Positions 5,872 through 39,000 of a DNA stretch of 64,000 nt are shown piece after piece. The number at the start of each line of letters is the position of its first letter. Positions within the stretch are counted from its first letter, which is position 1. The notes under the pieces are model-generated. The model was given only the letters and a program-made list of their open reading frames with translations. It searched no databases and had not been told where the DNA came from. A program made the translations under genes and the position numbers. Source of the DNA: Methylomonas fluvii (GTDB lineage Bacteria; Pseudomonadota; Gammaproteobacteria; Methylococcales; Methylomonadaceae); contig NZ_JACXST010000001.1 in the NCBI RefSeq assembly GCF_014850975.1, forward strand, positions 930,001-994,000, in the 5' to 3' direction.

Positions 5872-5966
5872 TCGCTGTTCCTTCTATATGATGTTGGCGT
5901 TCTCACCAAAAAATGGCAAGCTGACGATTAACCCGCTCACGAATTTTGCGCTTAGCAAAATAAGGA

Positions 5967-7382
5967 CTATTTCTTTACATACAGGTCGGTAATCGTCCCT
6001 TCTATCATTTCCGCCGCAAACGCAAAGGTTTCCGATAAAGTTGGATGCGGATGGATGCTGAGGCTAATGTCTGTCGCATCCGCACCCATTTCCAGAGCCA
6101 GCACGGCTTCTGCCACTAATTCTCCGGCACCGGGGCCGGTAAAGCCGGCGCCGAGAATACGGCCGGTGGTTTTGTCGGTCAGGATTTTAGTAATACCTTC
6201 GCTGCGGCCCAGTGCCAAAGATCGGCCACTGGCGGCCCAAGGGAATACGGCTTTGTCGAATTCCACGCCTTGCTGTTGCGCCTGGGTTTCCGTCAAGCCC
6301 ATCCAGGCGACTTCCGGATCGGTATAAGCCACCGATGGAATAGTCAGCGCATCGAAACCGGCTTTGTGGCCGGCAATCACTTCAGCGGCGATTTTGCCTT
6401 CGTGCGTGGCTTTGTGGGCCAGCATCGGATTGCCGACGATGTCGCCGATCGCAAAAATATTGCTGACGTTGGTGCGGCCTTGCTTGTCCACCGGGATGAA
6501 GCCACGCTCATCAACATTGACGCCCGCCTTGTCGGCGTCGATCAGTTTGCCGTTGGGACGGCGGCCGACGGCCACCAATACCGCGTCGAACACTTCGGAT
6601 TCCGGTGCGCCTTTGCCTTCCATCGTGACTTTAATGCCGGTGTCGGTAGCTTCCATCGCCTTAACGCTCGTTTGTAGCCACAGATTCTCATACTGCTTTT
6701 TGATTTTGCGTTGCAGTGGTGTGACCAAGTCTTTATCGCAGCCGGGGATAATCTGATCCATCAATTCCACGACACTGATTTTCGAACCCAGCGCATGGTA
6801 AACAGTCGCCATTTCCAGGCCGATAATCCCGCCGCCGACAATTAATAGTTTTTCCGGCACCGATTTCAGTTCTAGTGCGTCGGTGGAATCCCAAACCCGA
6901 GGGTCGTCATGCGGAAAGCTGGGGATTTTAGTTGGTTGCGAGCCGGCTGCGATGATCGCGTTGTCGAAAGTGACGGTTTGCTCGCCGGCATCGCTAGTCA
7001 CAGTCAAACTATTGGCCGAGGCAAATTTACCCACGCCATGGATTACCGTGACTTTGCGTTGCTTGGCCAGTTTGCCCAAGCCCTGATTCAGGCTTTGGCT
7101 GACGCTTTGTTTCCACGCTCTGATCTGGTCCAGATTGATGTTTGGCTTGCCAAAACTGACGCCGTGTTCGGCCATGGCTTCGGCTTCGTGTATCACTTGC
7201 GCGCTGTGTAGCAAAGCTTTGGAGGGAATGCAGCCGACATTTAAACAAACACCACCCAGAACGGGATAGCGTTCGACTAGTACGACTTGCTTGCCCAAAT
7301 CGGCAGCGCGGAAGGCAGCGGTATAACCGCCGGGGCCGCCGCCCAGAACTAACACTTCGGCATGCGTGACAGAATTGCTCAT
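5967..7382 (-). CDS. lpdA: Dihydrolipoyl dehydrogenase (E3)
   Basis: A flavoenzyme that reoxidises dihydrolipoamide on E2 and passes electrons to NAD. The 471-residue protein shows the FAD-binding GGGPGG (14-19), the redox disulfide CLNVGC (C46 and C51), a second dinucleotide fold (IVGGGIIGLEMA) for NAD, and the catalytic HPHPTLSE near residue 444. It is the third gene of aceE-aceF-lpdA and begins 10 bp after aceF, so it is probably dedicated to pyruvate dehydrogenase, though such E3 subunits may also serve 2-oxoglutarate dehydrogenase or the glycine cleavage system. Confidence 0.97.
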   Translation of the reverse strand: MSNSVTHAEVLVLGGGPGGYTAAFRAADLGKQVVLVERYPVLGGVCLNVGCIPSKALLHSAQVIHEAEAMAEHGVSFGKPNINLDQIRAWKQSVSQSLNQGLGKLAKQRKVTVIHGVGKFASANSLTVTSDAGEQTVTFDNAIIAAGSQPTKIPSFPHDDPRVWDSTDALELKSVPEKLLIVGGGIIGLEMATVYHALGSKISVVELMDQIIPGCDKDLVTPLQRKIKKQYENLWLQTSVKAMEATDTGIKVTMEGKGAPESEVFDAVLVAVGRRPNGKLIDADKAGVNVDERGFIPVDKQGRTNVSNIFAIGDIVGNPMLAHKATHEGKIAAEVIAGHKAGFDALTIPSVAYTDPEVAWMGLTETQAQQQGVEFDKAVFPWAASGRSLALGRSEGITKILTDKTTGRILGAGFTGPGAGELVAEAVLALEMGADATDISLSIHPHPTLSETFAFAAEMIEGTITDLYVKK

Positions 7383-7392
7383 ATCCCTACTC

Positions 7393-8688
7393 CTACAATA
7401 ACAGCCGGCGAATGTCGCCCAGATAAGATTTTAATGCTTCCATAAAACGCGCACCTTCGGCGCCGTCTATGACGCGGTGGTCGTAGGTAATGTCCAATGG
7501 CAGCATCAATTTCGGTTCGAATTCCTTGCCGTTCCACATCGGTTGTACCTTGGAGCGGGTGACGCCCAAAATCGCCACTTCCGGGGCATTGACGATAGGT
7601 GTGAATGCGGTGCCGCCAATCCCGCCCAAGCTGGAGATGGTCATGCAGCCACCCTGCATGTCGGCTGGTTTCAACTTGCCGGTTCTGGCCAGTTCGCTTT
7701 TTTCGGCCAGTTCGGTGGACAGTTGGAAAATGCCTTTTTTATCCACATCGCGAATGACCGGTACGACGAGACCATTTGGGGTATCGACGGCGATGCCGAT
7801 GTGGAAGTATTTTTTGAAATACAGTTTGTCGCCTTCCGGTGATAGCGAGCTGTTGAACGCCGGATATTTCTGCATCGCGGCGACCAAGGCCTTCATGATG
7901 AAGATCAGGCCGGTGACTTTGACGGCATCTTTTGCCAAGCCGGCGTTAACCGACTTGCGGAAGTCTTCCATCGCATCAATGGCCACCTCATCGTGGTAAG
8001 TCACCAATGGCAAATTCAGCCAGACGCGAGTCAGATTTTGCCCGGTCAGACGCTTGATTTTACTGAGTGGTTTTTCCTCGATTTCGCCGAATTGGGTGAA
8101 ATCGACGGCTGGAATGGCCGGTATACCTGCGCCACCGCTGGTCGAACCACCGGAGGCCATGACTTGCTTAACGAAGTTTTTCACATCGTCTTGCAGGATA
8201 CGGCCCTTACGGCCGCTGCCGGTTTGGATTTTGCTCAGATCGACGCCCAATTCGCGGGCAAACAGTCTGACGCTGGGGGTGGCGTGTGCTTTAAACCCTT
8301 CATTACTGCTTGCCATGGGCGCAGTAGGTGCTGCGGCTGGTTGGGCCTGTTCTACTTTTGGGGCTTCCGCAACCGGAGCTGGGCTCGGTTCCACTGAGGC
8401 AGGCGGTGATGCCGGTGCCGGTTCGGCTGGAGCTGTAGCGGCTGCCTCGCCCACTTCAATCGTAGCGATCAGTGTACCCTCGGAGACTTTATCGCCGGGT
8501 TTGATATGCACGGTTTTGATGGTGCCAGCCGCGCTGGACGGTAAGTCCATCGTCGCTTTGTCGGTTTCCATCACCGCCAGGGTTTGCTCCACCGCGACCA
8601 CGTCGCCAGGCTTGATCAGCACCTCGACGATGTCGATTTCAGGGACATTGCCGACGTCGGGCACCTTTATTTCAATTACAGAACTCAT
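7393..8688 (-). CDS. aceF: Dihydrolipoamide acetyltransferase (pyruvate dehydrogenase E2)
   Basis: The core of the pyruvate dehydrogenase complex, transferring acetyl groups from lipoamide to CoA. The 431 residues comprise one lipoyl domain (1-80, with the lipoylated Lys44 in ETDKATMD), an Ala/Pro-rich linker (about 82-130), a peripheral-subunit-binding domain (about 135-172) and the catalytic domain with DHRVIDG near residues 403-409 (His404 and Asp408 catalytic). E. coli AceF has three lipoyl domains; this one has a single one, which is common elsewhere and explains its shorter length. It lies 13 bp behind aceE. Confidence 0.97.
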   Translation of the reverse strand: MSSVIEIKVPDVGNVPEIDIVEVLIKPGDVVAVEQTLAVMETDKATMDLPSSAAGTIKTVHIKPGDKVSEGTLIATIEVGEAAATAPAEPAPASPPASVEPSPAPVAEAPKVEQAQPAAAPTAPMASSNEGFKAHATPSVRLFARELGVDLSKIQTGSGRKGRILQDDVKNFVKQVMASGGSTSGGAGIPAIPAVDFTQFGEIEEKPLSKIKRLTGQNLTRVWLNLPLVTYHDEVAIDAMEDFRKSVNAGLAKDAVKVTGLIFIMKALVAAMQKYPAFNSSLSPEGDKLYFKKYFHIGIAVDTPNGLVVPVIRDVDKKGIFQLSTELAEKSELARTGKLKPADMQGGCMTISSLGGIGGTAFTPIVNAPEVAILGVTRSKVQPMWNGKEFEPKLMLPLDITYDHRVIDGAEGARFMEALKSYLGDIRRLLL

Positions 8689-14194: not shown

Positions 14195-15799
14195 TTAGGA
14201 ACTGCAGGACAGCATGGAACAACCGGCGCGTTGCTTGGCCCAATCGGGCCGCTTAGCGGCAAAACTCTGCTTGTCCGCTTGATCGGCGTAAGGATGGCGC
14301 AGCACTTCAAGCAATTCCTGAACTAAAGAAAAATCACCTTGTTCTGCCTGGTCAATAGCCAATTGCGCTAGGTAATTACGCAATACATATTTCGGATTGA
14401 CTTCATTCATCGCCGAACTGCGCTCCAGCGCTAGCCGGCCATCGCGCTGACTGCGTAGGCAGTAAATGGCGAACCAGCGGGTAGCTTGCTCCATAATATC
14501 GTCGCTTAAGGGCTCGTAGCTGGTGCGTTGCAACAGCGCTAAAAATTGCGCCGGCGAATTGGCTTCCGCGCTGACATCGATATCAGCCAGCTGTCGATAA
14601 AACAAGGTCATATCGGTTTCAGCGGCTTGCATGAGCTGGGTTAAGTCGTTCACCAAGGTCTCGTCTTCGCCGGGTTCGAACATTGTTAAGCCCAATTTGG
14701 CGGCCATCATCGCCTGCCAGCCAGCGTCGAAGGTCTCGGTATAGGCCGATAAAGCTTGTTGCAAACTTTCGGCGCGCATAATCAGCGGATACAAAGCGTT
14801 GGCGAGTTGTACCAAATTCCAATACGCAATTTTCGCCTGATTGCCGAAGCGGTAACGGCGGCCTTGTGCATCAGTGGTGTTGGGGGTCCAGTCCGGATCG
14901 TAATTTTCCAGCCAGCCGTAAGGACCATAATCGATGGTCAAACCCAGGATCGACATATTGTCGGTGTTCATTACCCCGTGCACGAAACCGACCCGCTGCC
15001 AATGCACGATCATCTCGGCGGTTTTGCGGCAGACTTGCTTAAACCAATCCAGATACACAGGAATCGATGGTTCGCCCAACTCCGGAAAATCGGTACGTAT
15101 GGTGTAATCCACCAGTTTTTTCAGCGAGTCGATGTCATCGCGCGCTGTGAATATTTGAAAACTGCCGAAGCGCACGAAAGACGGTGCCACCCGGCATACC
15201 ACCGCGCTAGGTTCCATTTGCGGATTACCGTCGTAAAACATATCTCGCACCACCTGTTTGCCGGTTAGGATCACGCTTAAGGCGCGGGTGGTCGGCACGC
15301 CGAGATGATGCATGGCTTCGCTGCACAAAAACTCACGTATTGACGAACGCAGTACCGCCAAGCCGTCGGCGCTGCGGGAATAGGGCGTCACGCCCGCGCC
15401 TTTCAGTTGTAGGGTGTAGCGTTGTTTACGCTGATTAAGCACCTCGCCCAAATTGATGGCCCGGCCATCGCCGAGCTGGCCGGCCCAATGGCCGAATTGA
15501 TGGCCGCCGTAGCACATTGCATACGCTTCCATGCCTTTTGCGAGTCTGCTGCCGGCGAATACCTGGCAAAAATCATCCGATTCACAGATTTCGGCGGATA
15601 AGCCCAAATCTTCCGCGACTTCTTTGGAATAAGCGACTAGCCTGGGTTGCTGCGCCGGCGTCGGATTTACCCGGGAATAGCAGGCTGCATAAACTTGGCG
15701 CCGAAAATTATCCGGTTCGGGATCACCAGGCAACTCGCGGATAAAACGATTGTCGAAGTTCAGATTATCGAGGGCTGAATTGTGGTTTTCGGTAGGCAT
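14195..15799 (-). CDS. selO: Protein adenylyltransferase SelO (YdiU)
   Basis: SelO is a pseudokinase-fold enzyme that transfers AMP from ATP to Ser, Thr or Tyr of target proteins, with a role in redox homeostasis. The 534-residue protein has the family signatures AYAMCYGGHQFGHWAGQLGDGRA-like sequence near 92-113, the kinase-like QLKGAGVTPYSR region (131-142), and the metal-binding NTDN and DYGPYGW motifs. The C-terminus ends CSMLSCSS; eukaryotic SelO has selenocysteine near this position, here replaced by cysteine. It is a single gene. Confidence 0.95.
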   Translation of the reverse strand: MPTENHNSALDNLNFDNRFIRELPGDPEPDNFRRQVYAACYSRVNPTPAQQPRLVAYSKEVAEDLGLSAEICESDDFCQVFAGSRLAKGMEAYAMCYGGHQFGHWAGQLGDGRAINLGEVLNQRKQRYTLQLKGAGVTPYSRSADGLAVLRSSIREFLCSEAMHHLGVPTTRALSVILTGKQVVRDMFYDGNPQMEPSAVVCRVAPSFVRFGSFQIFTARDDIDSLKKLVDYTIRTDFPELGEPSIPVYLDWFKQVCRKTAEMIVHWQRVGFVHGVMNTDNMSILGLTIDYGPYGWLENYDPDWTPNTTDAQGRRYRFGNQAKIAYWNLVQLANALYPLIMRAESLQQALSAYTETFDAGWQAMMAAKLGLTMFEPGEDETLVNDLTQLMQAAETDMTLFYRQLADIDVSAEANSPAQFLALLQRTSYEPLSDDIMEQATRWFAIYCLRSQRDGRLALERSSAMNEVNPKYVLRNYLAQLAIDQAEQGDFSLVQELLEVLRHPYADQADKQSFAAKRPDWAKQRAGCSMLSCSS

Positions 15800-15909
15800 G
15801 ATGACATCTTATCGGTGGCTAAAAAATTTTCGAATCGCGGCTGGAACCGGCTAAGATAAGCCACTAACAGCTAGTTTATATCAATCAACTTTTCAATCAG
15901 GGAATACCA

Positions 15910-16254
15910 ATGAACAATTTTCTTGCAAAACGCGGACCACGCGCTTTTGGCTTTAGTTCACTTCTATTAGTCGCCAGCCTTGCGACGACGCAATTGACCG
16001 GTTGCTTTACTGTCGGCCAAGAGTTTTCCCCCGTCAGAGTTCCGGAAATTAAGGTCGGCCAAACCCGTAAGCAAGATATTACCGAAATGTTCGGCACGCC
16101 TTGGCGCACCGGTATGGAAGATGGTAAGCCTACCTGGACTTACGGGATCTACAAATATGCCTTGTTCGGCGGTAACGATTCCCAGGATTTGCTGATTCGC
16201 TTCGACGCGCAAGGCGTGGTGCGCTCTTACACCTTTAGTTCGACCCGCAAATAA
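15910..16254 (+). CDS. Outer-membrane lipoprotein, SmpA/BamE-like fold
   Basis: A 114-residue protein with a lipoprotein signal: basic N-terminus, hydrophobic stretch, and lipobox LTGC with the acylated Cys near residue 32. The mature part (VGQTRKQDITEMFGTPWRTGMEDGKPTWTYG) resembles the compact SmpA/OmlA (BamE) fold, in which a short helix follows the xxGxTxxxVxxxFGxP motif. It is probably not BamE itself, since the rest of that sequence is not matched. It is followed closely by the M23 peptidase gene (12 nt gap), so the two envelope proteins may be cotranscribed. Confidence 0.8.
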   Translation: MNNFLAKRGPRAFGFSSLLLVASLATTQLTGCFTVGQEFSPVRVPEIKVGQTRKQDITEMFGTPWRTGMEDGKPTWTYGIYKYALFGGNDSQDLLIRFDAQGVVRSYTFSSTRK

Positions 16255-16266
16255 TCGTGGTGGCCG

Positions 16267-17208
16267 GTGTTTGCTCGCGGCATTTTAGCTATCTCGCTGT
16301 TACTGGCGTCCAGTAGCGGCGTAGCTAAAAAGCTTTATAAATATCAGGACGTTGAGGGTAATTGGTATTTTACCGATCAGGCCCCCGCATCGAATCAGCC
16401 GGTAGAAGTCAGACAGTTAAAAACCGCCAATCCTAAGCGCGTTTGGCTGGAAAAAACGGCCGATGATTTGCAACCGAGTTTTTTTGCGCTGAACGCCTAT
16501 CCGGGGCCTATCGAACTGGCAGTCGATTGGCGAGAGCGGGAAAATGTCAGCGCCAATCCGGATTTGCCGCGCCGCTTTGTCGTTGAATCCGGACGGTCCG
16601 GCAGCTTGTTTTCGCTTATTCCCAAGCAAAGCGCCGGATTTTGTAGTGTCAATCTGCAATATAGCTACGTGGTTGGGCGGCCTTTACCCGGCTATGTGAG
16701 TCAAACGCTTTATAAACCACCCTTGCCTGCCGGTACGCAGTTTCAAATTACCCAGGCTTTTAATGGACCATACAGCCATAACGATGAACAGAATCGTTAT
16801 GCGGTAGACATCATGATGCCGGTTGATACTCCGATTTACGCCGCCCGAGGCGGTATCGTGCTGGAAGTGGAAAATGACTATACCAGTCATGGCACTAGCC
16901 AGTCTTACGCCAGCAAAGCCAACAGTATCAGGATCTTGCATGAAGACGGCTCCATGGCTGTGTACGCGCATCTGGCTTTGGAAAAAGCCCAAGTCACGCC
17001 AGGAATGCGGGTGACAACCGGGCAGTTGATAGGTTACTCCGGCAATACCGGCTTGACGACCGGGCCGCATTTGCATTTTGCGGTGCAGATCAATCGCGGT
17101 ATGGAGCTGATTTCCGTACCGTTTCAATTTACCGACTTGAACGGTCTGGCGGTGGAGCCAAGGCTTGGCCTGTGGTTGTCCGGGCCGGCGGCTGCCGCCG
17201 GCAATTAG
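16267..17208 (+). CDS. M23-family metallopeptidase with N-terminal DUF4124
   Basis: A 313-residue exported protein beginning at GTG 16267. A signal peptide (to about residue 20) is followed by a DUF4124-type segment (KKLYKYQDVEGNWYFTDQAP), a linker, then a LytM/M23 domain in the C-terminal half. That domain has RYAVDIMMPVDTPIYAARGG, YAHL, and the catalytic GPHLHF. The His normally four residues before the zinc-binding Asp is Arg here; a His further upstream (YSHND) may replace it, as in related sequences. M23 enzymes cut peptidoglycan crosslinks or act as regulators of amidases. It lies just after a lipoprotein gene and converges on a diguanylate cyclase. Confidence 0.88.
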   Translation: MFARGILAISLLLASSSGVAKKLYKYQDVEGNWYFTDQAPASNQPVEVRQLKTANPKRVWLEKTADDLQPSFFALNAYPGPIELAVDWRERENVSANPDLPRRFVVESGRSGSLFSLIPKQSAGFCSVNLQYSYVVGRPLPGYVSQTLYKPPLPAGTQFQITQAFNGPYSHNDEQNRYAVDIMMPVDTPIYAARGGIVLEVENDYTSHGTSQSYASKANSIRILHEDGSMAVYAHLALEKAQVTPGMRVTTGQLIGYSGNTGLTTGPHLHFAVQINRGMELISVPFQFTDLNGLAVEPRLGLWLSGPAAAAGN

Positions 17209-17210
17209 CC

Positions 17211-19451
17211 TTAGGCTTCGGAGCTGAAAAACCGAAAGCAGTCACGCCCCGCGCATTTGGCTTGGTACATCGCATTGTCGGCGTTTTTCATCAGGCTATT
17301 TGCCTCCAGGCCGTCATCGGGATAAACGGCAATCCCTATGCTGGAAGAAATATCCAGCGTGTGTTGTTGAATCACAAACGGCTGATTCAGACTGGTCAAG
17401 ATGTTTTCGGCGACCAGCCCGGCCGCTGAGTGTCGGTCCAATTGGCTGAGTAAAATCACAAACTCATCGCCGCCCAAACGCGACACGGTATCCGTTTCCC
17501 GCTTGACGCACGCTTCCAGGCGATTCGCCACCTCTTTCAGCAATAAGTCGCCGACATCGTGACCGAAGCTGTCGTTGACCGGCTTGAACTTGTCCAGATC
17601 CAAATAGAGCAAGGCCAGCAAACTGTGCTCGCGTCTGGCCTGAGCGATAGCCTGATGCAAGCGGTCGATCAGTAAGGTGCGATTGGGCAGGTCGGTCAGT
17701 GCGTCGAAGTGGGCCAGATGATGAATGTGTTGCTCTATGGCTTTACGCGCCGTTATGTCCATCATCGTGCCGACATAATGGGTAATTTTGCCATCCGGGT
17801 TTTTCACGGCGCTGATGGTGAGCCATTCCGGAAATATATTGCCGTTCTTACGCCGATTCCAGATTTCACCTTGCCAGACGCCTTCGCTATCAATGGATTG
17901 CCACATTTCGGCAAAAAACAGCGCATCGTGAATGCCGGAATTGAGGATGTTCATTTTTTGACCGATGGCTTCTTCGCTGGAGTAGCCGGTAATCGCGGTA
18001 AAGGATTTATTCACCTTTAAAATGACGGCATCGGCATCGGCATCGGTAATCATCATGCCCTCCTGCGATTCGAAAGCCGTCGCGGCAATCCGCAGTTCGG
18101 TGTCCAGGCGTTTGCGTTCGCAAATGTTTTGCGCGAAGGTAAAACTCAGTTCCAAGCCATTGTGAGCGATGTAGTGGCAGGTGAGCTCGACAGGGAATAC
18201 TGTGCCATCTTTACGCCGATGAAGGCTTTCGTGGCTGACAATTTCGCAGTCGCGCAAACGCTGCCAAATGGCTGGCCAGGCACTGGCCGCAAAGTCCGGA
18301 TCGAATTCCCAAGGGGCCATGCCCACCAATTCGTCCCGCGAATAGCCCAAAGATTGACACGCGTAATCATTGACGTACGTCACCATGCCCTTGGGATTAA
18401 GACAGAAGAAAGCGGTCTTGCTTTTATCGACCATGGTTTTGGCCAGCCACAACTCGTTTTCAATCTTCTTTAGCTCGGTGATGTCATCGTATACCCCCAA
18501 TATTCCGATGGTTTCGCCCAGACTATTGCGCAGTGGCGCTTTAGAGGTTCGCAGCAGAATCTCTTTGCCCTCGGGAGTGGTTTGCGGCTCTTCGTAAGCC
18601 AGCTTAGGCATGTTCGATTGCATGACCTGGCGGTCATCGGCGCGGTAGAGCAAGGCCTGGTTTCGCCAGGACAGTTGCTGATCGACTTTACCGAGGAGGT
18701 CTTCGGCTCTAGTGAAACCGCCATCTCGAGCGAACTGCGAGTTGCAGCCGAGATAGCGCGATTGCAGGTCTTTCCAAAATACCCGCATAGGTATGGTTTC
18801 TATGACCGATTGCAGCAAGCTGCGTGACTCGGCGAGCGCGTTCATCGCATTGATGCGTTTGGAAATATCGTAGAGTAATACCAGTTGCATTTTCTGATCG
18901 GCTCCGCCTATACGCGTGGCGGTGGCCATGACGTGTTTGTTCAGGTCGTTTTTGCAACGAACTTTGATTTCCAGGGGCTGAAATTCTTGGTCGTCATTTT
19001 CGAAGCGCTTTTGCCATTCCGCGCCAATCGTTTCACGGTAAACGGGATCGGGGAAGGCCTGTAATTGCCAATCGGATAGGTTGGGAATATCCCGGAGCTG
19101 GTACCCGAAGACCTTGGTAAATTCCGGGTTCAGCATTTGCAGATTGCGCTTGTCGTCGAATAGCGCCAGAGGAATGGGCAGTGCGGTGACAATAGTGCTT
19201 AACTGGATATTGTCGTCGTGCAAACTGCTCAGATGGTCTAAAAAAACAATGATCATGGCGCAGATCAACGAGGCGACCAGCAGTGAAGCGACCAAGCCGG
19301 TAAGTAGATAATCAAAGCTGATTTCGCCTTTCAGCAGCAAATCTATTATCGCCACAATAGATTCCGTAAGCACTGTCGCCAGAACAACCGAAATCAGCCA
19401 AAGCTGGTATTTATTGATACGTGGTAAACGGCTGAGAAGGATGTATTTCAA
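17211..19451 (-). CDS. Membrane diguanylate cyclase with four PAS domains
   Basis: A 746-residue signalling protein that should make cyclic-di-GMP. Two membrane helices (about 17-40 and 50-72) are followed by four PAS-type domains (about 84-200, 210-335, 337-455 and 456-575) and a C-terminal GGDEF domain with an intact RLGGDEF active site. An RETD sequence lies exactly five residues before GGDEF, matching the RxxD inhibitory site for product feedback. There is no EAL domain. The PAS domains may sense redox, ligand or light; no cofactor can be assigned from sequence alone. It is a single gene convergent with the M23 peptidase, separated by only two bases. Confidence 0.92.
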   Translation of the reverse strand: MKYILLSRLPRINKYQLWLISVVLATVLTESIVAIIDLLLKGEISFDYLLTGLVASLLVASLICAMIIVFLDHLSSLHDDNIQLSTIVTALPIPLALFDDKRNLQMLNPEFTKVFGYQLRDIPNLSDWQLQAFPDPVYRETIGAEWQKRFENDDQEFQPLEIKVRCKNDLNKHVMATATRIGGADQKMQLVLLYDISKRINAMNALAESRSLLQSVIETIPMRVFWKDLQSRYLGCNSQFARDGGFTRAEDLLGKVDQQLSWRNQALLYRADDRQVMQSNMPKLAYEEPQTTPEGKEILLRTSKAPLRNSLGETIGILGVYDDITELKKIENELWLAKTMVDKSKTAFFCLNPKGMVTYVNDYACQSLGYSRDELVGMAPWEFDPDFAASAWPAIWQRLRDCEIVSHESLHRRKDGTVFPVELTCHYIAHNGLELSFTFAQNICERKRLDTELRIAATAFESQEGMMITDADADAVILKVNKSFTAITGYSSEEAIGQKMNILNSGIHDALFFAEMWQSIDSEGVWQGEIWNRRKNGNIFPEWLTISAVKNPDGKITHYVGTMMDITARKAIEQHIHHLAHFDALTDLPNRTLLIDRLHQAIAQARREHSLLALLYLDLDKFKPVNDSFGHDVGDLLLKEVANRLEACVKRETDTVSRLGGDEFVILLSQLDRHSAAGLVAENILTSLNQPFVIQQHTLDISSSIGIAVYPDDGLEANSLMKNADNAMYQAKCAGRDCFRFFSSEA

Positions 19452-32508: not shown

Positions 32509-32796
32509 ATGAATCGCGTCGAAATCCGCTATTGCACGCAATGCCGCTGGCTACTGCGCGCGGCCTGGATGGCTCAGGAATTGTTAAGCACTTTTGAACA
32601 GGAACTGGACGAACTGGTGCTGCAGCCCGACACCGGCGGCATTTTCGAGGTGCGCGCCAACGGCGAATTAGTTTGGTCCCGCAAGCAGCAAGGCCGCTTT
32701 CCGGAGATTACCGAGTTAAAGCAATTGGTGCACGACTACATTGCCCCGGAGCGCGACCTGGGGCACGCCGACCGCAAGCCCGCGCCGAAGTCTTGA
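32509..32796 (+). CDS. SelT/SelW/SelH family thioredoxin-like protein
   Basis: A 95-residue protein of the Rdx family. The CTQC redox motif (residues 9-12) is followed by RWLLRAAWMAQELLSTF, then the beta-hairpin GGIFEVRANGELVWSRKQQGRFPE, which is the family's second hallmark. In eukaryotes and some bacteria the second position is selenocysteine; here both are cysteine. The fold is thioredoxin-like, and the substrate is unknown. It starts three bases after mpl stops, so it is part of the same operon. The kinase downstream begins 40 bp later. Confidence 0.88.
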   Translation: MNRVEIRYCTQCRWLLRAAWMAQELLSTFEQELDELVLQPDTGGIFEVRANGELVWSRKQQGRFPEITELKQLVHDYIAPERDLGHADRKPAPKS

Positions 32797-32836
32797 TTTT
32801 TCTGCACTGACATACAATACGGCCAAGCTGTCTGAG

Positions 32837-34810
32837 ATGATGCTCCCGGAAGACGACGCCACCCTCATTAAACCCAAAGACGACGATCTGACCCGGATCA
32901 AGCCTCGCCCCTACCCACAGGTGTTGAACGACAGCCCTGGGCAGGACGGTAAATTCAACGATGATTATTCCTTGCGCGGCGCAGTGGGGGTGGGTGGTGG
33001 CGGTCAGGTGTTGCTGGGTTTTGACGAGCGCATCGGCCGCGAAGTGGCAATTAAAGAATTACTGGATCAGGCTGCGAATGATGATGTCGAGCTGAGCGCA
33101 CGTTTTCTGCGCGAAGCCCGCATCACCGGCCGCCTGGAACATCCGGGGATAGTGCCGGTTTACGATCTGGGGACGAAGCAAAGCGGAGCGCCCTATTATG
33201 TGATGCGCTTGGTGCGTGGCGATACGCTGGCCAAAGCCCTAAAAGCCTGTAATGACGAGGTGCTGGCCGAGCATGCCCTGTCGCGGCGCCTGAGCTTGTT
33301 GGACAGATTAATCGACGTTTGCGAAGCGGTGGCTTATGCCCACTCCAAAGGCGTGATTCACCGTGACATCAAACCCGGCAATATCGTACTGGGCCCGTTC
33401 GGTGAAACGATTGTGCTGGATTGGGGTTTGGCCAAGGTGGAAAACGAAGCCGATCTGGCGCCACCAATATCTGCCGTACCAAAACAGGTAGCCGACGATG
33501 CGGATCTGACCCGGATCGGCGACATTCTCGGCACCCCGGCCTATATGGCGCCTGAACAAGCCAATCCTGATTTCGGCGCGGTAGATACCCGCTCCGACGT
33601 ATTTGCCCTCGGTTGCATTCTCTATTATCTGCTGGCCGGCCATCCGCCGCTGCGCGGCAGTGCCGATGAGATATTGGCGCAACTCAGTTCGCTGGCTCCT
33701 ATGCCCACGGCGCGCGATCCGAAACTGCCAATGCCGCCGGAATTGATCGCCATCTGCGATAAGGCGTTGTCCAAGGATAAATCCCTACGGTTTCCGAATG
33801 CGGCTGCGTTAGCCGACGAGTTGCGGGCCTATCGCGACGGCCGCTTGGTGAGTGCCTATGCCTATTCGCGGGGCGAACTGCTCCGACGCTTCATCGCCCG
33901 TAACAAAGTCGTGCTGGCGGCTAGCCTGGCAGTATTGCTGGCGATTTTGATCGGCGCCGGGCTGGCCTTCAAATTTGGCGTGGAGGCGCATAAAGCGCGA
34001 AATTTGGTGGTGGCTGAAGGCGAAATCGTCAAGCAGGAAAAGCAGCAGGTGGAGCGTGCGCTGGCCGATGTCACCCGTATTTCCAACCAGAACCTGACGG
34101 CTGCCAACCAAATGGCGGCCAGCATACTTGGTAATATCAATGAAATACGCATGGGCATGCAGCAAACTGCAGAGTCCTTACACCGCAACGCCGATTTAGC
34201 CGCATCCAGCGGCTTACTGGAGAGCTTGCTGCAACATTATCCGCGCGGTGAAAGTTTTGCCACGACCCGTGCGCCCGGCACCATCGTTGCGGTGGCTCCG
34301 GGCAAATATCGCCAAGCGCTGGGCGCGGATACCTCGCAACTTGAGCACAACCGAATGACTTTGGAACGGGGCGTGCCGATTCTGAGCCGGATTTATCAAG
34401 CCCCGGAAGGCTTTCCCGCCGTCACGTTAGTGGTGCCGATCAAACAAGGTAAAACCATCCTGGGCTTTATTTCCATGCGCATCAAGCCGGTCGATTTTCT
34501 CGGTGGCTTGCTGGCCGAGAATACTCAGCCCCAAAAACGCACCGTGTGGGTCGTGCAAGATGACGGCCTGCTGCTTTACGATAGCGATCCTCAGGAGATT
34601 GGCCTTAATTTGTTCCGTGAGGAACGCTTTAATCAGATACCGGAATTGCGCCAGCTCGCGGCTGAAATCGCCGATCAAGACGCCGGAGTGGGCTATTACC
34701 AAAACCAGTCAGCCGGTCAATCCGCGCCGTCAAGGCAAATCGCAGCCTGGGTAAGTTTGCGGCCGGCGGAGAATCGGGTCTGGAAAGTGGTCGTTTTAGA
34801 AGCTTGGTGA
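32837..34810 (+). CDS. Membrane Ser/Thr protein kinase with C-terminal extracytoplasmic sensor
   Basis: A 657-residue Hanks-type kinase with start at ATG 32837 (a second ATG follows at once). The kinase domain (about 45-320) has a glycine loop (GVGGGGQV), Lys73 in VAIK, HRDIKPGN (175-182), DWG in place of DFG (195-197) and GTPAYMAPEQ. A membrane helix (about 350-372) leads to a C-terminal region of about 285 residues with a helical stalk and a Cache-like alpha/beta fold (VTLVVPIKQGKTILGFISMRI, VVQDDGLLLYDSD). It would therefore sense something outside the cytoplasm. D-x-DLTRI occurs twice, at 15-21 and in the activation segment at 221-227. Substrates are unknown. Confidence 0.9.
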   Translation: MMLPEDDATLIKPKDDDLTRIKPRPYPQVLNDSPGQDGKFNDDYSLRGAVGVGGGGQVLLGFDERIGREVAIKELLDQAANDDVELSARFLREARITGRLEHPGIVPVYDLGTKQSGAPYYVMRLVRGDTLAKALKACNDEVLAEHALSRRLSLLDRLIDVCEAVAYAHSKGVIHRDIKPGNIVLGPFGETIVLDWGLAKVENEADLAPPISAVPKQVADDADLTRIGDILGTPAYMAPEQANPDFGAVDTRSDVFALGCILYYLLAGHPPLRGSADEILAQLSSLAPMPTARDPKLPMPPELIAICDKALSKDKSLRFPNAAALADELRAYRDGRLVSAYAYSRGELLRRFIARNKVVLAASLAVLLAILIGAGLAFKFGVEAHKARNLVVAEGEIVKQEKQQVERALADVTRISNQNLTAANQMAASILGNINEIRMGMQQTAESLHRNADLAASSGLLESLLQHYPRGESFATTRAPGTIVAVAPGKYRQALGADTSQLEHNRMTLERGVPILSRIYQAPEGFPAVTLVVPIKQGKTILGFISMRIKPVDFLGGLLAENTQPQKRTVWVVQDDGLLLYDSDPQEIGLNLFREERFNQIPELRQLAAEIADQDAGVGYYQNQSAGQSAPSRQIAAWVSLRPAENRVWKVVVLEAW

Positions 34811-34931: not shown

Positions 34932-34956
34932 GCCCCCGGTTCAGCCGGGGGCATTT
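34932..34956. terminator. Bidirectional terminator between kinase and large membrane protein genes
   Basis: GCCCCCGG (34932-34939) pairs with CCGGGGGC (34945-34952) with a 5-nt loop. T-rich sequence follows on the minus strand (TTTATC); the plus side is weaker. It lies between two convergent gene ends. Confidence 0.75.
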
Positions 34957-34962
34957 GCTATG

Positions 34963-37900
34963 TCAATCGTCTGATTTCGGCAGGCCCACTTGAGGCTGCG
35001 ATTTTTTCCAAAGCCCACCGCCGGCAAAACAGTTCCAGCCCCAGCGCAGCCAATTCAACAACGCTACGGCCATCCACAAAGACCAAGCCAACATCAGAAT
35101 CCGGTAGGCCAGCAAAGGCAGGCTTACTACTGTGGCAACGGCTAGCTGCGGGCCATTGCGATCCTGATACCAGTTCAGCAAAGTTGCAGAGGATTGATTT
35201 CCGGCAATTTGCATATCCGGATTTCCCAACAAACCTTGTTCGACGGCAATCGCTATTAACAATAATGAAAATAGCGTCAAACCGGCCAAGCCGATTTGCG
35301 CCAGATTGAACCAGCGCGGCCGTTCCGGCGCATGATGGGCGCGGAATCCCAACGCAAACAGCCAGCCCACCACTAAAAATGCGGCAGCAATATGCAGTTG
35401 GCTCAGGCCGATCAACAATAAAAACCACTGCCAATGCCGCAACGGCGTGATGCTCAGCTTACCCAAGCCGAATGCCAATAAGGCCAGTACGATCAGCAAG
35501 CCCCAAATCAACACGGCCGGACCAAATTTTGGGCCGAAGGTCCACAGCAACCAACGCTGTTGCGGCATCAGCAATTGAATACGGCTGTTGACGCTGGCAA
35601 CACCAAGATCGACCAGCGGCGTGTGCAACAGCACCCCCGGTTCTTTAGCCGCTTGCCAATTGAGCACGATTTGCTGGGTGCCGGGATGTATCGGCAAGCC
35701 GACCGTCGCGCCTTGCTGGCGAATCGGTTGACTGACGCCGTCTATCGTCACGCTTTGCAGCTCCGCCAGTTCCGGCAGCTTTACGGGGTGTTGTCCGCCT
35801 TTGGAGCTGCGGATGCTCAAAATCAGTTCGACTGTTTCGCTGCGTTGCCCAGGCTTGACCGCCAATTCGCTTCTATCGATAGTCAAGGTTGAGCCGGCCA
35901 CTGCTTGCGGTCGGCTGATAGTCAGATTGACCTTTTCGCCAGGCCAGGGCCGCCATTCCGGTAGCCACTGGCCCTGCCCGTCCTGGTGATGCACCACCGC
36001 AATGCCATCGGCTTGTAAATGCCAGATCGGGCTGACATCGGCGCGCCACACCTCGGTCCATTGCGGCGTATCGGCGGCTTGCAATGCCAATTGCTCGGTT
36101 TTCGCCAGTGCAGACTCCCATTCCAAAGTAGCTTGACCCGCAGCCATGTTCACCAAGACTTTGCCGTCCTTCACCCGCACCTGCGGACTGGTAACCGCTT
36201 CGCCCGGCAACAACGGTAGCTCCAGTAACACCGGGCTGAGTGCGCCGGCCAATTGCTCGACGCGGGTGGTCACCCGCCAGTCCAAGCCCAAATGCAGAGT
36301 TCTTTCCACTCGCACGAATGCCGGCAAGGCGGTTTGCTGTAATTTATTTTTCAGCCCGCTATCGAGTTGCAGCCTGCTGAACTCCAGTTGTGGACCCACC
36401 TTGCCGTCTTCGTATAAACCATCCACCCGCCAGCCGTCGGCAGTGACGCCGGCATGTTGCGGCGGCAATGGCAGCGGCAAACTAAATTTATCCTGCGCGG
36501 TATAGCGGCCTTGCATCGTCACTTTGTGTACGCCTGACGACACGGCTAACCACAAGCTGCCGTCCTCCTGTCTGATCAAAGCTTGCGCCTCGCCGCCGTC
36601 GACGCTGACCTGCTCCGGAAACCATTGCTCAAGCTGGGCTGGCAAAGGTACCGCCAAATCTTGCTGGGCGTGCAATTGCAGTTCGATACGCAGCACTTCC
36701 GGCTTGACCAGTAATTGCATGTCGGCAATCTGCGCGCAAATGGGTAGGCATTGCGGCGCTTGTAGCAAGCGGGTTTTCAATTGCTCCAGCATTGGCGCGT
36801 CGGGCAGATCGGCATAGGCCTTTTCGTTTGGCGCCATCAACAGCGGCAACAGCAACAGGCAAGTGAAACTCGGCAAGGACAAGCGCCAGTTGGCGGCGAT
36901 GGCTCCCAGCATTTTCAACACCAACACCGCCACCAACAGGGCCTGGGCAAAATGCAGCAACATCAGCATAAATGGCGACAAATACCACAGCCGGATTTGC
37001 TGACCACTATCGACCGCGCCATTCCAGCTTAACTCCACGCGCTGCCAGCCCCAGTGCGGCAAACCGGGACCGGTTTGCAGATTGGCGTCCGGATCGATGC
37101 GCTGCAAACTGGCAGCGCTGCCTCCATAAGCTCTCGACATCTTGGGTTTAGCTGAATACTCGGGCTCCGTTTTAGCAAGTTCACTTATTTCCGGCTCCAT
37201 CGCCGAATCCGCCATCTGTTCTACTTGCATCGCCATCGGTGCGGCAGCACTCACCATCGAATGCAAACGTTGAATGGACTGTCCGGGCAGTTCCAGCTGT
37301 GGGTAAATGCCGATACGAATCTGCGCTATCATGAATGGAATCGTCAGCATCAACAGCGCCAGCCAGCTGGCGTTGCGATACCATCTCAACCATTGCCAAA
37401 CGCTAGCTACCGGCAATACCCGCAGCAACGCCAACACCGCCAGCACATTCAGCCAAATCAAGCGCGGCGCATCGGTCTCATGCCAAATCAGCGCCAAACT
37501 GAGCAAGGCAAACCCGCCCCATTGCGGCGACCAGAGTCGGCCCACGGCTAATGCGGCAATCAAGACCAAAAACAAGTCCAGCAAAGTCCAGCGGTTTAAC
37601 CAGCTATTCGGCACATTATCCACACCGCTGATCGCCAGCAGACGCCAGCCCGGCGGGATATTTAGTTCGGCCTGCACCTGTTGAAAACGCTGTTGCCAGC
37701 CGCTGGCACTTAAGCTACCCAAATCGGCTTCGATCCGGCTGTCGGCATTCAGGTGGATGGCACCGCGCCGCACTTCCACGCCCTGGCTGCCGTCCGCCAG
37801 TTGTGTAATCAATTGGCTCTGACCATCCAGTTGTACTTGTCCCAAGCCCAGCGCAGGCAAGGCGTTCAAGCGCCAGTCGCGGCTCATGCTACCGGTGATG

Positions 37901-39000
37901 TTATCGCTGACCGTGTAGCCGCCGCCCTCGAAATCCAGCCACAGCGTGCGCTGCAGCTTGAGTTGATTCGGCTCGGGCTCCGGGTCGCCGCGGCGCACGA
38001 CCTTAAACTTCATGCTCTCGCCTTGCTGGAGCTGATAGGTAGGTAAATGCTGCCATTCGGCGGGCAGATTGGTTTGGCTGCCGTCTATCGCGGTCAAATT
38101 CTCGATCTCGACCAAACGCAAAGCGGGCATGGCCTGGAAAGCCCACAACTCGTCCGCCGGCCAGTTCGGGTCTGTTACGGCCAAATCCAGATGCGTCAAG
38201 GCTTGCGGATGGCGGGCATGAATGTCGATACTCCAGCGTCCCGGCCGTACTTGCACCAAGAGCCGCCCGTTACCGTCCAGACGAGCCGGCAGCGGGCTAT
38301 TCAAAGCCACCGGGATAAAGTTAGGCAGTAAAGCATAAGGAAACTCGATCTCGCGCGCCTTGCCGGAGACTTCCAAATCCAGACGTGTAATGACTTGCAG
38401 CGGCACCTCGTCCTGCACTTGCCGGAATACTTGCAGGTCCAGCCTATCCTGCTCCCGGTCGACAGTGTCGGCGTTCTCGGTATTGAGCCACAAGGCACCT
38501 TGTTTGATGGGTGGATAAGCCACCGGCTTATCGTTGACGCTGAGCTGAATCAAGCCGCTGGCTTCGGGTAAGGCCAGTTGCTCCGGCAAACTTTCCCAGA
38601 AAAATTCGCCGCTGATCTGGTAGCGGCCGGCCGGTAAGTGCAGGGCCGGCTTACCGTCTTTTTCCACGACCGGCTGGGTTTGTTTGTTGATGGTGACCGC
38701 CTGCGGCCAATGTTGCGTGTCGCCCGGCAAGCTAATCCAATCCTGGCGATATATGGTCCATTCGGCAACGAAGCTGCCGTGCTTAGCTTGTAAATTAAGG
38801 TGCAGGGCGCCCGGCCAAGCGCAGTGTTTTTGTTGAAAATCGTCGAAGAAAAACGGGCAACGATACTGAGTTTCATCCGCCAAAACCCAGTTGACCCAGG
38901 GCTTTAACGGTTCCGGAACGTCTTGCATGTCCAACGCCCTTGCCGTTGGCAACGGCGCCAGCCCAAGCAGTAGCCACAGCATAAAAACCAGTCGTCCCAT
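34963..39000 (-). CDS. Large inner-membrane protein with two related periplasmic domains, function unknown
   Basis: A 1345-residue protein with a strong ribosome site (GGGAGGA) before ATG 39000. A signal peptide (1-22) is followed by a periplasmic beta-rich region (23-470), four membrane helices (about 472-490, 495-507, 515-533 and 545-565), a Met/Glu/Ser-rich loop, two more helices (about 677-701 and 710-723), a second beta-rich region (730-1120) and about five helices to the end. The two soluble regions look related: Cys pairs 48/60 and 751/755; a V(T/S)(I/V)-x5-20-DG-x-L-x-L/P pattern at 101-135, 797-832 and again near 1083-1116; RTL-x-L at 351 and 900. I do not recognise a family. It is a single gene, convergent with the kinase. 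Confidence 0.8.
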   Translation of the reverse strand: MGRLVFMLWLLLGLAPLPTARALDMQDVPEPLKPWVNWVLADETQYRCPFFFDDFQQKHCAWPGALHLNLQAKHGSFVAEWTIYRQDWISLPGDTQHWPQAVTINKQTQPVVEKDGKPALHLPAGRYQISGEFFWESLPEQLALPEASGLIQLSVNDKPVAYPPIKQGALWLNTENADTVDREQDRLDLQVFRQVQDEVPLQVITRLDLEVSGKAREIEFPYALLPNFIPVALNSPLPARLDGNGRLLVQVRPGRWSIDIHARHPQALTHLDLAVTDPNWPADELWAFQAMPALRLVEIENLTAIDGSQTNLPAEWQHLPTYQLQQGESMKFKVVRRGDPEPEPNQLKLQRTLWLDFEGGGYTVSDNITGSMSRDWRLNALPALGLGQVQLDGQSQLITQLADGSQGVEVRRGAIHLNADSRIEADLGSLSASGWQQRFQQVQAELNIPPGWRLLAISGVDNVPNSWLNRWTLLDLFLVLIAALAVGRLWSPQWGGFALLSLALIWHETDAPRLIWLNVLAVLALLRVLPVASVWQWLRWYRNASWLALLMLTIPFMIAQIRIGIYPQLELPGQSIQRLHSMVSAAAPMAMQVEQMADSAMEPEISELAKTEPEYSAKPKMSRAYGGSAASLQRIDPDANLQTGPGLPHWGWQRVELSWNGAVDSGQQIRLWYLSPFMLMLLHFAQALLVAVLVLKMLGAIAANWRLSLPSFTCLLLLPLLMAPNEKAYADLPDAPMLEQLKTRLLQAPQCLPICAQIADMQLLVKPEVLRIELQLHAQQDLAVPLPAQLEQWFPEQVSVDGGEAQALIRQEDGSLWLAVSSGVHKVTMQGRYTAQDKFSLPLPLPPQHAGVTADGWRVDGLYEDGKVGPQLEFSRLQLDSGLKNKLQQTALPAFVRVERTLHLGLDWRVTTRVEQLAGALSPVLLELPLLPGEAVTSPQVRVKDGKVLVNMAAGQATLEWESALAKTEQLALQAADTPQWTEVWRADVSPIWHLQADGIAVVHHQDGQGQWLPEWRPWPGEKVNLTISRPQAVAGSTLTIDRSELAVKPGQRSETVELILSIRSSKGGQHPVKLPELAELQSVTIDGVSQPIRQQGATVGLPIHPGTQQIVLNWQAAKEPGVLLHTPLVDLGVASVNSRIQLLMPQQRWLLWTFGPKFGPAVLIWGLLIVLALLAFGLGKLSITPLRHWQWFLLLIGLSQLHIAAAFLVVGWLFALGFRAHHAPERPRWFNLAQIGLAGLTLFSLLLIAIAVEQGLLGNPDMQIAGNQSSATLLNWYQDRNGPQLAVATVVSLPLLAYRILMLAWSLWMAVALLNWLRWGWNCFAGGGLWKKSQPQVGLPKSDD

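Follow-up and report, generated by a model that had tools for sequence, protein, structure and literature searches.

The minus-strand open reading frame at 34963-39000 of the window (the 64,000-nucleotide stretch of Methylomonas fluvii DNA that was analysed) opens with ATG and encodes a protein of 1345 residues plus stop, internally duplicated and fused, whose two halves are significantly and collinearly similar. None of the family libraries searched has a name for the family it belongs to. The protein, which occurs in methanotrophs and related bacteria, is predicted to be polytopic in the inner membrane. The similarity patterns described below point, in our judgement probably, to the following explanation: one complete ancestral gene would have been duplicated in tandem and fused in frame, giving a protein in which two beta units stand over two sets of five helices, forming one assembly without a fixed partner gene and perhaps binding an envelope ligand in the manner of a clamp or receptor.

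Relatives and internal duplication

Near-full-length relatives were found at 27-94% identity, and the frame is therefore not a chance one; the preliminary description had its coordinates right and lacked only the strand. Relatives occur in 55 of the 369 genomes sampled from the class (15%; 46 of them nearly full length on one contig), in 28 of the 37 sampled genomes of the genus Methylomonas, and in 29/398 genomes (7%) of a second sample, drawn from the phylum and overlapping the first. The length of the family is about 1,300-1,500 residues, and the copy in Methylomonas sp. LW13 shows 92% identity to the window protein. Open reading frames of 1300-1500 aa were obtained from 42 of 45 loci with the gene (three were dropped, for N-terminal run-on or split frames), and 40 of these 42 formed the main alignment, two near-identical ones being left out; mean column identity over this whole alignment is 42%. 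A wider set of 63 sequences added 23 of the 24 loci of the 398-genome sample, the remaining one having no frame above 1250 aa.

When the family alignments of the two halves were compared with hhalign (residues 20-470 against 725-1150), residues 57-448 aligned with 752-1143 (probability 97.4%, E 9.4e-12, score 95.4, 369 columns), far above the controls, in which 59 column shuffles reached at most 23.6, 40 block shuffles at most 38.7 and the reversed alignment 19.6. The alignment of 57-568 with 752-1260 is collinear over 478 columns, and inclusion of the membrane parts raised the score from 95.4 to 117.6. Because the membrane blocks taken alone gave no significant alignment between the halves, the duplication of the helices is argued from collinearity and matching predicted topology. 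When the N half was compared by BLASTP with the C half of the same protein, 17 of the 40 relatives reached E<=0.01 (lowest value 5e-6) versus 0/40 with the C half reversed; at E<=0.1 the counts were 24 and 6. Some of these best matches are out of collinear register, and for the window protein the comparison gave only E 0.16. C48, C60, C751 and C755 are the only invariant cysteines, two per half at corresponding places.

The preliminary description had suggested an ancient duplication of a periplasmic unit with shared cysteine pairs. The duplication and the cysteine pairs both hold, and the duplication is larger than described: the repeated unit is not periplasmic alone, and appears to include the signal peptide as well as five membrane helices. 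Of the correspondences proposed there, residues 40-150 do match 745-850; the pairing of 345-430 with 895-970 has to be replaced by two others (345-430 with about 1037-1127, and 895-970 with about 187-270), and the partner of the invariant R900 in the 'VERTL' motif is the invariant R193 instead of R351, which the 'RTL' anchors had implied.

That no known family was recognised agrees with our searches. The window protein had no significant match in Pfam (best E 0.045, below the cut-off), none in NCBIfam or PADLOC, and none among PDB sequences (best E 0.56 with the single protein and 0.43 with the 40-row profile). Pfam searches with subregions of 25 relatives returned scattered weak matches; the best, BiPBP_C (PF06832, E 2.5e-4), was rejected as a family-wide beta-sandwich, being matched within 725-1010 by two of the 25 relatives and not by the window protein. 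The earlier term 'undescribed system' is nevertheless too strong: what has been shown is a family that these libraries do not name.

Layout of the halves and the split in one genome

Each half starts with an export signal, continues with a beta-rich periplasmic unit whose one invariant cysteine pair lies early in the unit, and then has five predicted helices (Table 1). Membrane topology and disulphides are predictions for both halves: K+R exceeds D+E in 6/6 predicted cytoplasmic loops and in 0/4 predicted periplasmic loops. The region 1259-1322, made up of a loop and helix e', is the best conserved of 14 regions compared (mean column conservation 0.68). The two AlphaFold2 models were built from 7 and 6 mostly close sequences and, at mean pLDDT 39.9 and 37.9, could not be used; Foldseek and VIA lists of the poor C model contained nothing interpretable, and no such list entered the verdict.

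Table 1 Features of the gene and of its 3' flank in the window.
Feature	Residues	Position	Strand	Basis or remark
Whole gene	1-1345	34963..39000	-	1345 aa; N half about residues 1-700, C half about 701-1345
Signal-peptide-like N-terminal segment	1-22	38935..39000	-	Sequence
N periplasmic beta-rich unit (predicted)	23-465	37606..38934	-	Aligns with C unit
Invariant cysteine pair of N unit, C48...C60	48-60	38821..38859	-	40/40
Predicted helices a-d	466-570	37291..37605	-	Hydropathy, loop charges; collinear with a'-d'
Variable extracytoplasmic loop d-e (predicted)	571-672	36985..37290	-	Conserved QTGPGLPxWxW near loop end
Predicted helix e	673-700	36901..36984	-	Hydropathy, loop charges; N-half gene of genome G032 stops just after
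Internal signal-peptide-like segment	701-730	36811..36900	-	Ends AYA/D (slash, candidate cut)
C periplasmic beta-rich unit (predicted)	731-1150	35551..36810	-	Aligns with N unit
Invariant cysteine pair of C unit, C751xxxC755	751-755	36736..36750	-	40/40
Predicted helices a'-d'	1151-1258	35227..35550	-	Hydropathy, collinearity, loop charges
Loop GLLGxPDMQIxGN...LxWYQDR and predicted helix e'	1259-1322	35035..35226	-	
GC-rich inverted repeat		34932..34952	.	Between convergent ends of gene and kinase; terminator-like, weak evidence

The internal segment, which opens the C half, has a 15-residue core resembling that of the N-terminal signal. Core conservation is 0.30 in the internal segment and 0.33 in the N-terminal signal, compared with 0.45-0.72 in the ten helices, these two being the least conserved hydrophobic segments of the protein. 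P733, which follows the internal segment, is conserved in 40/40 sequences of the main alignment and in 59/63 of the wider set.

In one genome only, G032 (a 360-contig assembly), the two halves are separate complete genes lying inside two contigs and split at the point of the internal signal: the N-half gene encodes 713 aa and the C-half gene 685 aa, the latter starting with its own signal-like N terminus. As these half-length matches are not at contig ends, the split is a true one. Trees place both halves among fused relatives with support of 0.98-1.0, and the split is therefore secondary. Half-length matches in eight other genomes (in one of them, on one of its two contigs) stop at or near a contig end, and the further short matches inspected within the taxonomic order proved to be fragments or broken gene copies. 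Searches of 124 genomes of the class with each of two profiles, residues 20-330 and 1000-1335, found no half without the other in the same genome, apart from weak matches at E 0.003 or worse.

Weighing the explanations

The probable explanation, a duplicated and fused complete gene whose product works as one assembly, draws its support from the half-half similarity far above controls, its collinearity, the invariant cysteine pairs, the loop charges, the signal-like internal segment, the split in G032 and the lack of a recurrent neighbour. With export re-started at the internal signal, the beta units of both halves would lie on the periplasmic side, over 2 x 5 helices bundled in pseudo-twofold symmetry. 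Together the halves would make up one assembly, a pseudo-dimer that does not depend on the covalent link between them. Its beta units might, as a clamp or a receptor, bind an envelope ligand (glycan, lipid or protein) and couple this to the membrane bundle.

Since the halves are separate genes in G032, the fused protein, too, may be cleaved into its halves. We regard the chances as evenly balanced that signal peptidase I cuts after A730 (AYA/D), yielding two paralogous membrane subunits in a fixed 1:1 ratio that pair as a heterodimer. Besides the separate proteins of G032, with a C half that carries its own N-terminal signal, this is favoured by a core as variable as that of a signal peptide, by the positive stretch preceding it (mean K+R 2.35, D+E 0.53) and by a small-x-small site directly after it in 61/63 relatives (strict AxA in 38/63), the same count for the N-terminal signals being 45/62 and 22/62. 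The site count alone is, however, not decisive: helix b' shows small-x-small in 60/61 (strict AxA in 9), alanine-rich helix positions reach AxA in 18-30 of 40, and with the site fixed near P733 the numbers are 52/59 and 31/59. Three of the 40 sequences of the main alignment fail near P733, one of these having a candidate site further upstream; the proposed cleavage is read from sequence. The fuller version falls a little short of an even chance: a widespread bacterial polyprotein, made by duplicating and fusing a whole membrane-protein gene including its signal peptide, whose retained internal signal would remain a substrate of signal peptidase I. The two paralogous membrane subunits with beta domains would then form an obligate heterodimer serving a new function at the envelope, and in the G032 lineage two genes would encode these subunits.

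An uncleaved single chain of 2 x (1 + periplasmic unit + 5) helices, that is, a pseudo-symmetric transporter of RND type without detectable homology, is unlikely. RND proteins comprise two repeats of one helix, a periplasmic domain and five helices, and the number and order of helices and periplasmic unit predicted here for each half from hydropathy and loop charges are the same. The would-be first and seventh helices are, however, the two least conserved hydrophobic segments, and the 'one helix' of each repeat resembles a signal peptide; the halves can also be encoded separately; and the periplasmic units look all-beta, unlike RND porter domains. Hhalign against 14 of 30 fetched MMPL loci gave a best E of 0.27, with all four scores below the shuffled maximum.

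Gene neighbourhood does not account for the protein, as the preliminary description had also found: no family recurred in more than 6 of the 45 loci (mechanical open reading frames, many loci being cut by contig ends). Close same-strand neighbours were present at 8/42 loci upstream and 8/44 downstream; apart from two genomes of a single genus, no shared family was seen among them, and at two of the loci dropped from the main alignment they were pieces of the gene itself. A sensor or effector acting with the neighbouring Ser/Thr kinase, which carries a dCache-like domain, is therefore very improbable: the kinase is adjacent and convergent in the window, but it adjoins the gene in only 5 of 26 loci (25 from Methylomonas and one from the same family), no neighbour family exceeds the count given above in the wider loci, and the kinase is not a conserved partner. 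The inverted repeat between the two genes (Table 1) is one of 13 terminator-like sites found in the region, where shuffling led us to expect 8.7. Participation in the PEP-CTERM/exosortase surface-protein pathway was considered on account of the patchy distribution of that pathway, and is the least credible of these explanations, exosortase (TIGR02602) being found in 22/40 genomes with the gene versus 21/40 without it.

The duplicated and fused gene is a clean case in which a complete gene for an exported membrane protein, with its second export signal retained, is accompanied by a natural split back into two genes. It raises the question of whether bacteria apply signal peptidase to internal signals, splitting the product of a fused gene into matched subunits, and it points to a candidate function at the envelope of methanotrophs that would be missed from gene neighbourhood alone.

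Comparison with known membrane proteins

Sequence profiles indicated no homology to CreD, YidC, MMPL or M1 N-domains. The N and C units were compared as arbitrary pieces (N1-N3 and C1-C3), and the M1_N, MMPL and YidC sets, each split in two as a positive control, gave a probability of 100; 2 of the 12 hhalign comparisons with these three sets were just above the control maximum and none was significant. CreD, an inner-membrane protein of the CreBC regulon, has an N-terminal hydrophobic segment, a beta-rich periplasmic part and several helices, a layout shared by one half of our protein, and a short stretch is alike by eye (TPLxxxxWLLLGxGLS and LHPMQYLLVGLAL); CreD proteins have 432-487 aa, about half the size of this protein or less. 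CreD (PF06123) was rejected: Pfam gave no match at E<=10 (cut-off 23 bits), and hhalign against 7 CreD proteins gave E 0.13 or worse in a set of clean rows, shuffled controls having scored as high on an earlier set with two wrong rows.

YidC with its periplasmic domain has the arrangement of one helix, a beta periplasmic domain and five helices, as in each half. It was likewise discarded, with no match to PF14849 or PF02096 at E<=10 and hhalign E values of 0.06 or worse against 20 of 24 fetched YidC proteins; the best score (23.6, N half, E 0.096, control maximum 22.9) was not counted. For the M1 aminopeptidase N-domain (PF17900), Foldseek and VIA gave weak matches: VIA placed on it the one better modelled piece (about 62-141, block pLDDT 51-80) with its poorly modelled surroundings at Z up to 5.0, a range common for the tool and obtained from a poor model. 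Sequence comparison gave no significant match here either: there was no Pfam match at E<=10, hhalign against 16 of 22 fetched loci gave E 0.013 or worse, and N1, the sole one of four M1_N comparisons above control (20.9, control maximum 18.6, E 0.025), was not counted. RND/MMPL proteins share the internal duplication, each half having one segment, a periplasmic unit and five helices, and no match to PF03176 or another Pfam RND profile was obtained at E<=10.

For the possible cleavage at the internal signal, the closest likeness is with the cytochrome b/c1 polyprotein (fbcH) of Bradyrhizobium, in which one gene with an internal signal sequence is translated into a product that signal peptidase cuts into two membrane subunits; the likeness lies in the single gene with its internal signal, and the difference in the products, which in fbcH are not paralogues of each other and here would be.

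Duplication of the two halves

The two beta-rich periplasmic units of the protein (N unit, residues 20-470; C unit, residues 725-1150), compared with hhalign over 369 columns of the 40-sequence family alignment, matched each other with a probability of 97.4%, an E-value of 9.4e-12 and a score of 95.4, and the controls reached at most 23.6 (59 column shuffles), 38.7 (40 shuffles of 15-column blocks) and 19.6 (reversed). With the whole halves (1-705 against 700-1340) the score rose to 117.6 (E 2.4e-13; control maximum 34.5 in 30 block shuffles), and their alignment continued through helices a-d, the first four of the five predicted in each half (57-568 against 752-1260). These scores bear out, and extend, the ancient internal duplication proposed in the preliminary description. 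Inside single proteins, BLASTP of the N against the C half gave E ≤ 0.01 in 17/40 sequences and in 0/40 when the C half was reversed (24/40 versus 6/40 at E ≤ 0.1), part of the best matches being out of register; the window protein is outside these 17, its own halves matching at E 0.16. Between arbitrary pieces of the units (N1-N3 and C1-C3), N1-C1 was the strongest pair (probability 95.8%); N1-C3 (75.7%) and C1-C3 (85.2%) were also alike, the shuffle controls covering whole units only. Consequently, each periplasmic unit may contain repeated beta modules, which would explain the VTI..DG..PG pattern previously noted three times.

The similarity of the membrane blocks compared alone was not significant; a common origin of the membrane parts is supported by collinearity, by the equal number and orientation of the predicted helices, and by the loop charges (on average K+R is above D+E in each of the six loops predicted as cytoplasmic, and in no loop of the four predicted as periplasmic). 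The cysteine pairs described earlier as common to both halves are the four invariant cysteines C48/C60 and C751/C755, at corresponding positions, presumably forming disulphides; a further cysteine column (1324) is kept in 29/40.

Distribution and neighbourhood of the gene

The copy of Methylomonas sp. LW13 is 92% identical to the window protein. The gene was found in 28/37 Methylomonas genomes of the genus search (identity 94 to 51%) and in 43/91 genomes of the order sample, spanning 21/29 genera; among these 43, G800, G808 and G834 have fragments only and G783 is truncated at a contig end. Decayed fragments of the gene were observed in G800, G834 and G831 (L187, L188 and L183), the last with an intact copy around 3 kb away. 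In the order sample the gene is absent from the small-genome groups f3, f260 and f259 (one fragment in f259 excepted); 4/5 genomes of genus g484 also lack it although they are large, and therefore genome size is not the whole story. The class sample gave matches in 55/369 genomes, 46 of them nearly whole on a single contig (counted from the listing), among which the frame is broken in G028 and G232 and G248 has one stop; the others were the two separate genes of genome G032, six matches truncated at contig ends, and the short G179 and G211, the latter perhaps due to chance. In the phylum sample, which shares genomes with the class sample, 29/398 genomes match, fragments included. One of 72,556 plasmids, in Azoarcus sp. 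KH32C, carries a copy (38% identity), and IMG/VR holds a partial copy at the end of one contig.

Features of the window, of genome G032 and of the host genome (G000)
Feature	Position	Strand	Remarks
ORF of the doubled protein, 1345 aa	34963-39000	minus	ATG to stop; no strand named in the preliminary description
Internal signal-like segment	residues 701-730		preceded by N-half helix e, followed by the C unit
Convergent neighbour: Ser/Thr kinase, C-terminal sensor domain	32741-34810	+	PF00069 E 2e-35; PF22309 E 1e-12
GC-rich inverted repeat	34932-34952		between the ends of gene and kinase
ORF, 888 aa	46539-49205	+	ordinary RND candidate; overlaps MMPL match G000:C1:976707-977840 (E 2.1e-21)
G032 half matches	15493-17571 of 20147 nt; 5906-7726 of 15293 nt
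Host CreD gene (L134, L137)	G000:C3:611614-612920		appears broken: two overlapping matches, the larger with three internal stops

As had been stated, no neighbour explains the protein: the commonest neighbour family was present in 6 of 45 loci, at six different positions, and the flanks vary also among 26 loci, 25 of these from Methylomonas. A link to the adjacent kinase was not supported, the kinase adjoining the gene in 5/26 loci only (the window, L031, L109, L110 and L111); the kinase also has a PF02743 dCache match below its cut-off. Elsewhere a citrate synthase-looking or chemoreceptor-like gene (judged by eye) is often adjacent, mostly on the opposite strand. Considering the inverted repeat, the varying flanks and the 291 bases separating the same-strand upstream gene from the start, the gene looks monocistronic in the window and lacks a constant neighbour. 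Its occurrence is not followed by that of exosortase (22/40 genomes with the gene, 21/40 without, hand-picked from the class, genus and order searches and not random).

Internal signal-like segment and separate half genes

In the internal signal-like segment, a short positive stretch is followed by a hydrophobic core, a small-x-small site and P733, which is present in 40/40 sequences of the family alignment and 59/63 of the wider set. The median core length is 15, as in the N-terminal signal and helices a, c and d (25.5 in e; 24 in e'). Small-x-small was found past the internal core in 61/63 relatives (AxA in 38/63), past the N-terminal signals in 45/62 (AxA 22/62), and past helices b, d and d' in 28/63, 13/63 and 18/62 (AxA 11, 2 and 3). 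Helix b' reached 60/61 (AxA 9), and therefore this count alone is no proof of a cleavage site; strict AxA near P733 occurs in 20/40 of the family alignment, several alanine-rich helix positions giving 18-30/40. Core conservation is more telling: 0.30 in the internal segment, 0.33 in the N-terminal signal, and 0.45 to 0.72 in the ten helices. If the segment were a structural helix in the bundle, one would hardly expect it to vary more than every other hydrophobic stretch.

In G032, one genome of 360 contigs, the halves are separate genes (L243, L244) on two contigs, each well inside its contig. With the start codons that we chose, the N-half gene encodes 713 aa and stops directly past helix e. 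The product of the C-half gene (685 aa) has a signal-like N terminus, basic and hydrophobic, whose last residues are LTYA ahead of ES; an insert comes next, and then the C unit, which carries the CLPHC pair. An insert at this place is also found in the fused relative L066. The trees of either half (midpoint rooting) placed G032 with fused L066 and L064, within the family (support 0.98 to 1.0), and consequently the split is secondary, not ancestral.

As predicted from its genes, G032 shows that the halves can occur as separate polypeptides, broken at the internal signal, which raises the polyprotein and doubled-architecture readings and lowers that of an uncleaved, RND-like single chain, now improbable. 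A polyprotein whose internal signal is cut, giving two subunits, has an even chance, considering the G032 split and an internal core as variable as the N-terminal signal on one side and the indecisive site count on the other; fbcH, the cytochrome b/c1 polyprotein of Bradyrhizobium, is a precedent for a polyprotein with an internal signal. The fuller case, in which signal peptidase I would cut to give an obligate heterodimer with a candidate new envelope function, falls slightly short of that. The best explanation, mainly as regards architecture, is probably a duplicated pseudo-dimeric membrane protein. We propose, in deliberately general terms, that this pseudo-dimer may serve in the periplasm as a clamp or receptor and be coupled to the membrane; this putative function is a guess, and rather unlikely to be right.

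Comparison with known families and systems

In agreement with the preliminary description, which recognised no family, the window protein had no significant match in Pfam, NCBIfam, PADLOC-DB or PDB sequences, nor did the family profile against PDB sequences; subregions of 25 relatives gave scattered weak Pfam matches only. The two nearest hints, a BiPBP_C match in 2/25 relatives (best E 2.5e-4) and a weak VIA match (Z up to 5.0) between the first beta piece and M1 aminopeptidase N-domains, are what a generic beta-sandwich would produce. Among the titles listed for polyproteins of bacteria, internally duplicated proteins and signal peptides at internal positions, none pointed to a comparable protein, which is weak evidence in a library short of most subscription journals. 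CreD of Stenotrophomonas is the subject of PMC4689548.

Profile comparisons with fetched CreD, YidC and MMPL proteins gave no significant similarity, and the YidC, MMPL and M1_N sets, split in two as positive controls, reached a probability of 100; the names CreD, YidC and RND were therefore rejected for the doubled protein. In its predicted layout each half resembles CreD and YidC, and both halves together resemble RND transporters. By analogy, the protein could be a pseudo-symmetric transporter of the RND kind, a clamp similar to an insertase or chaperone, or a receptor.
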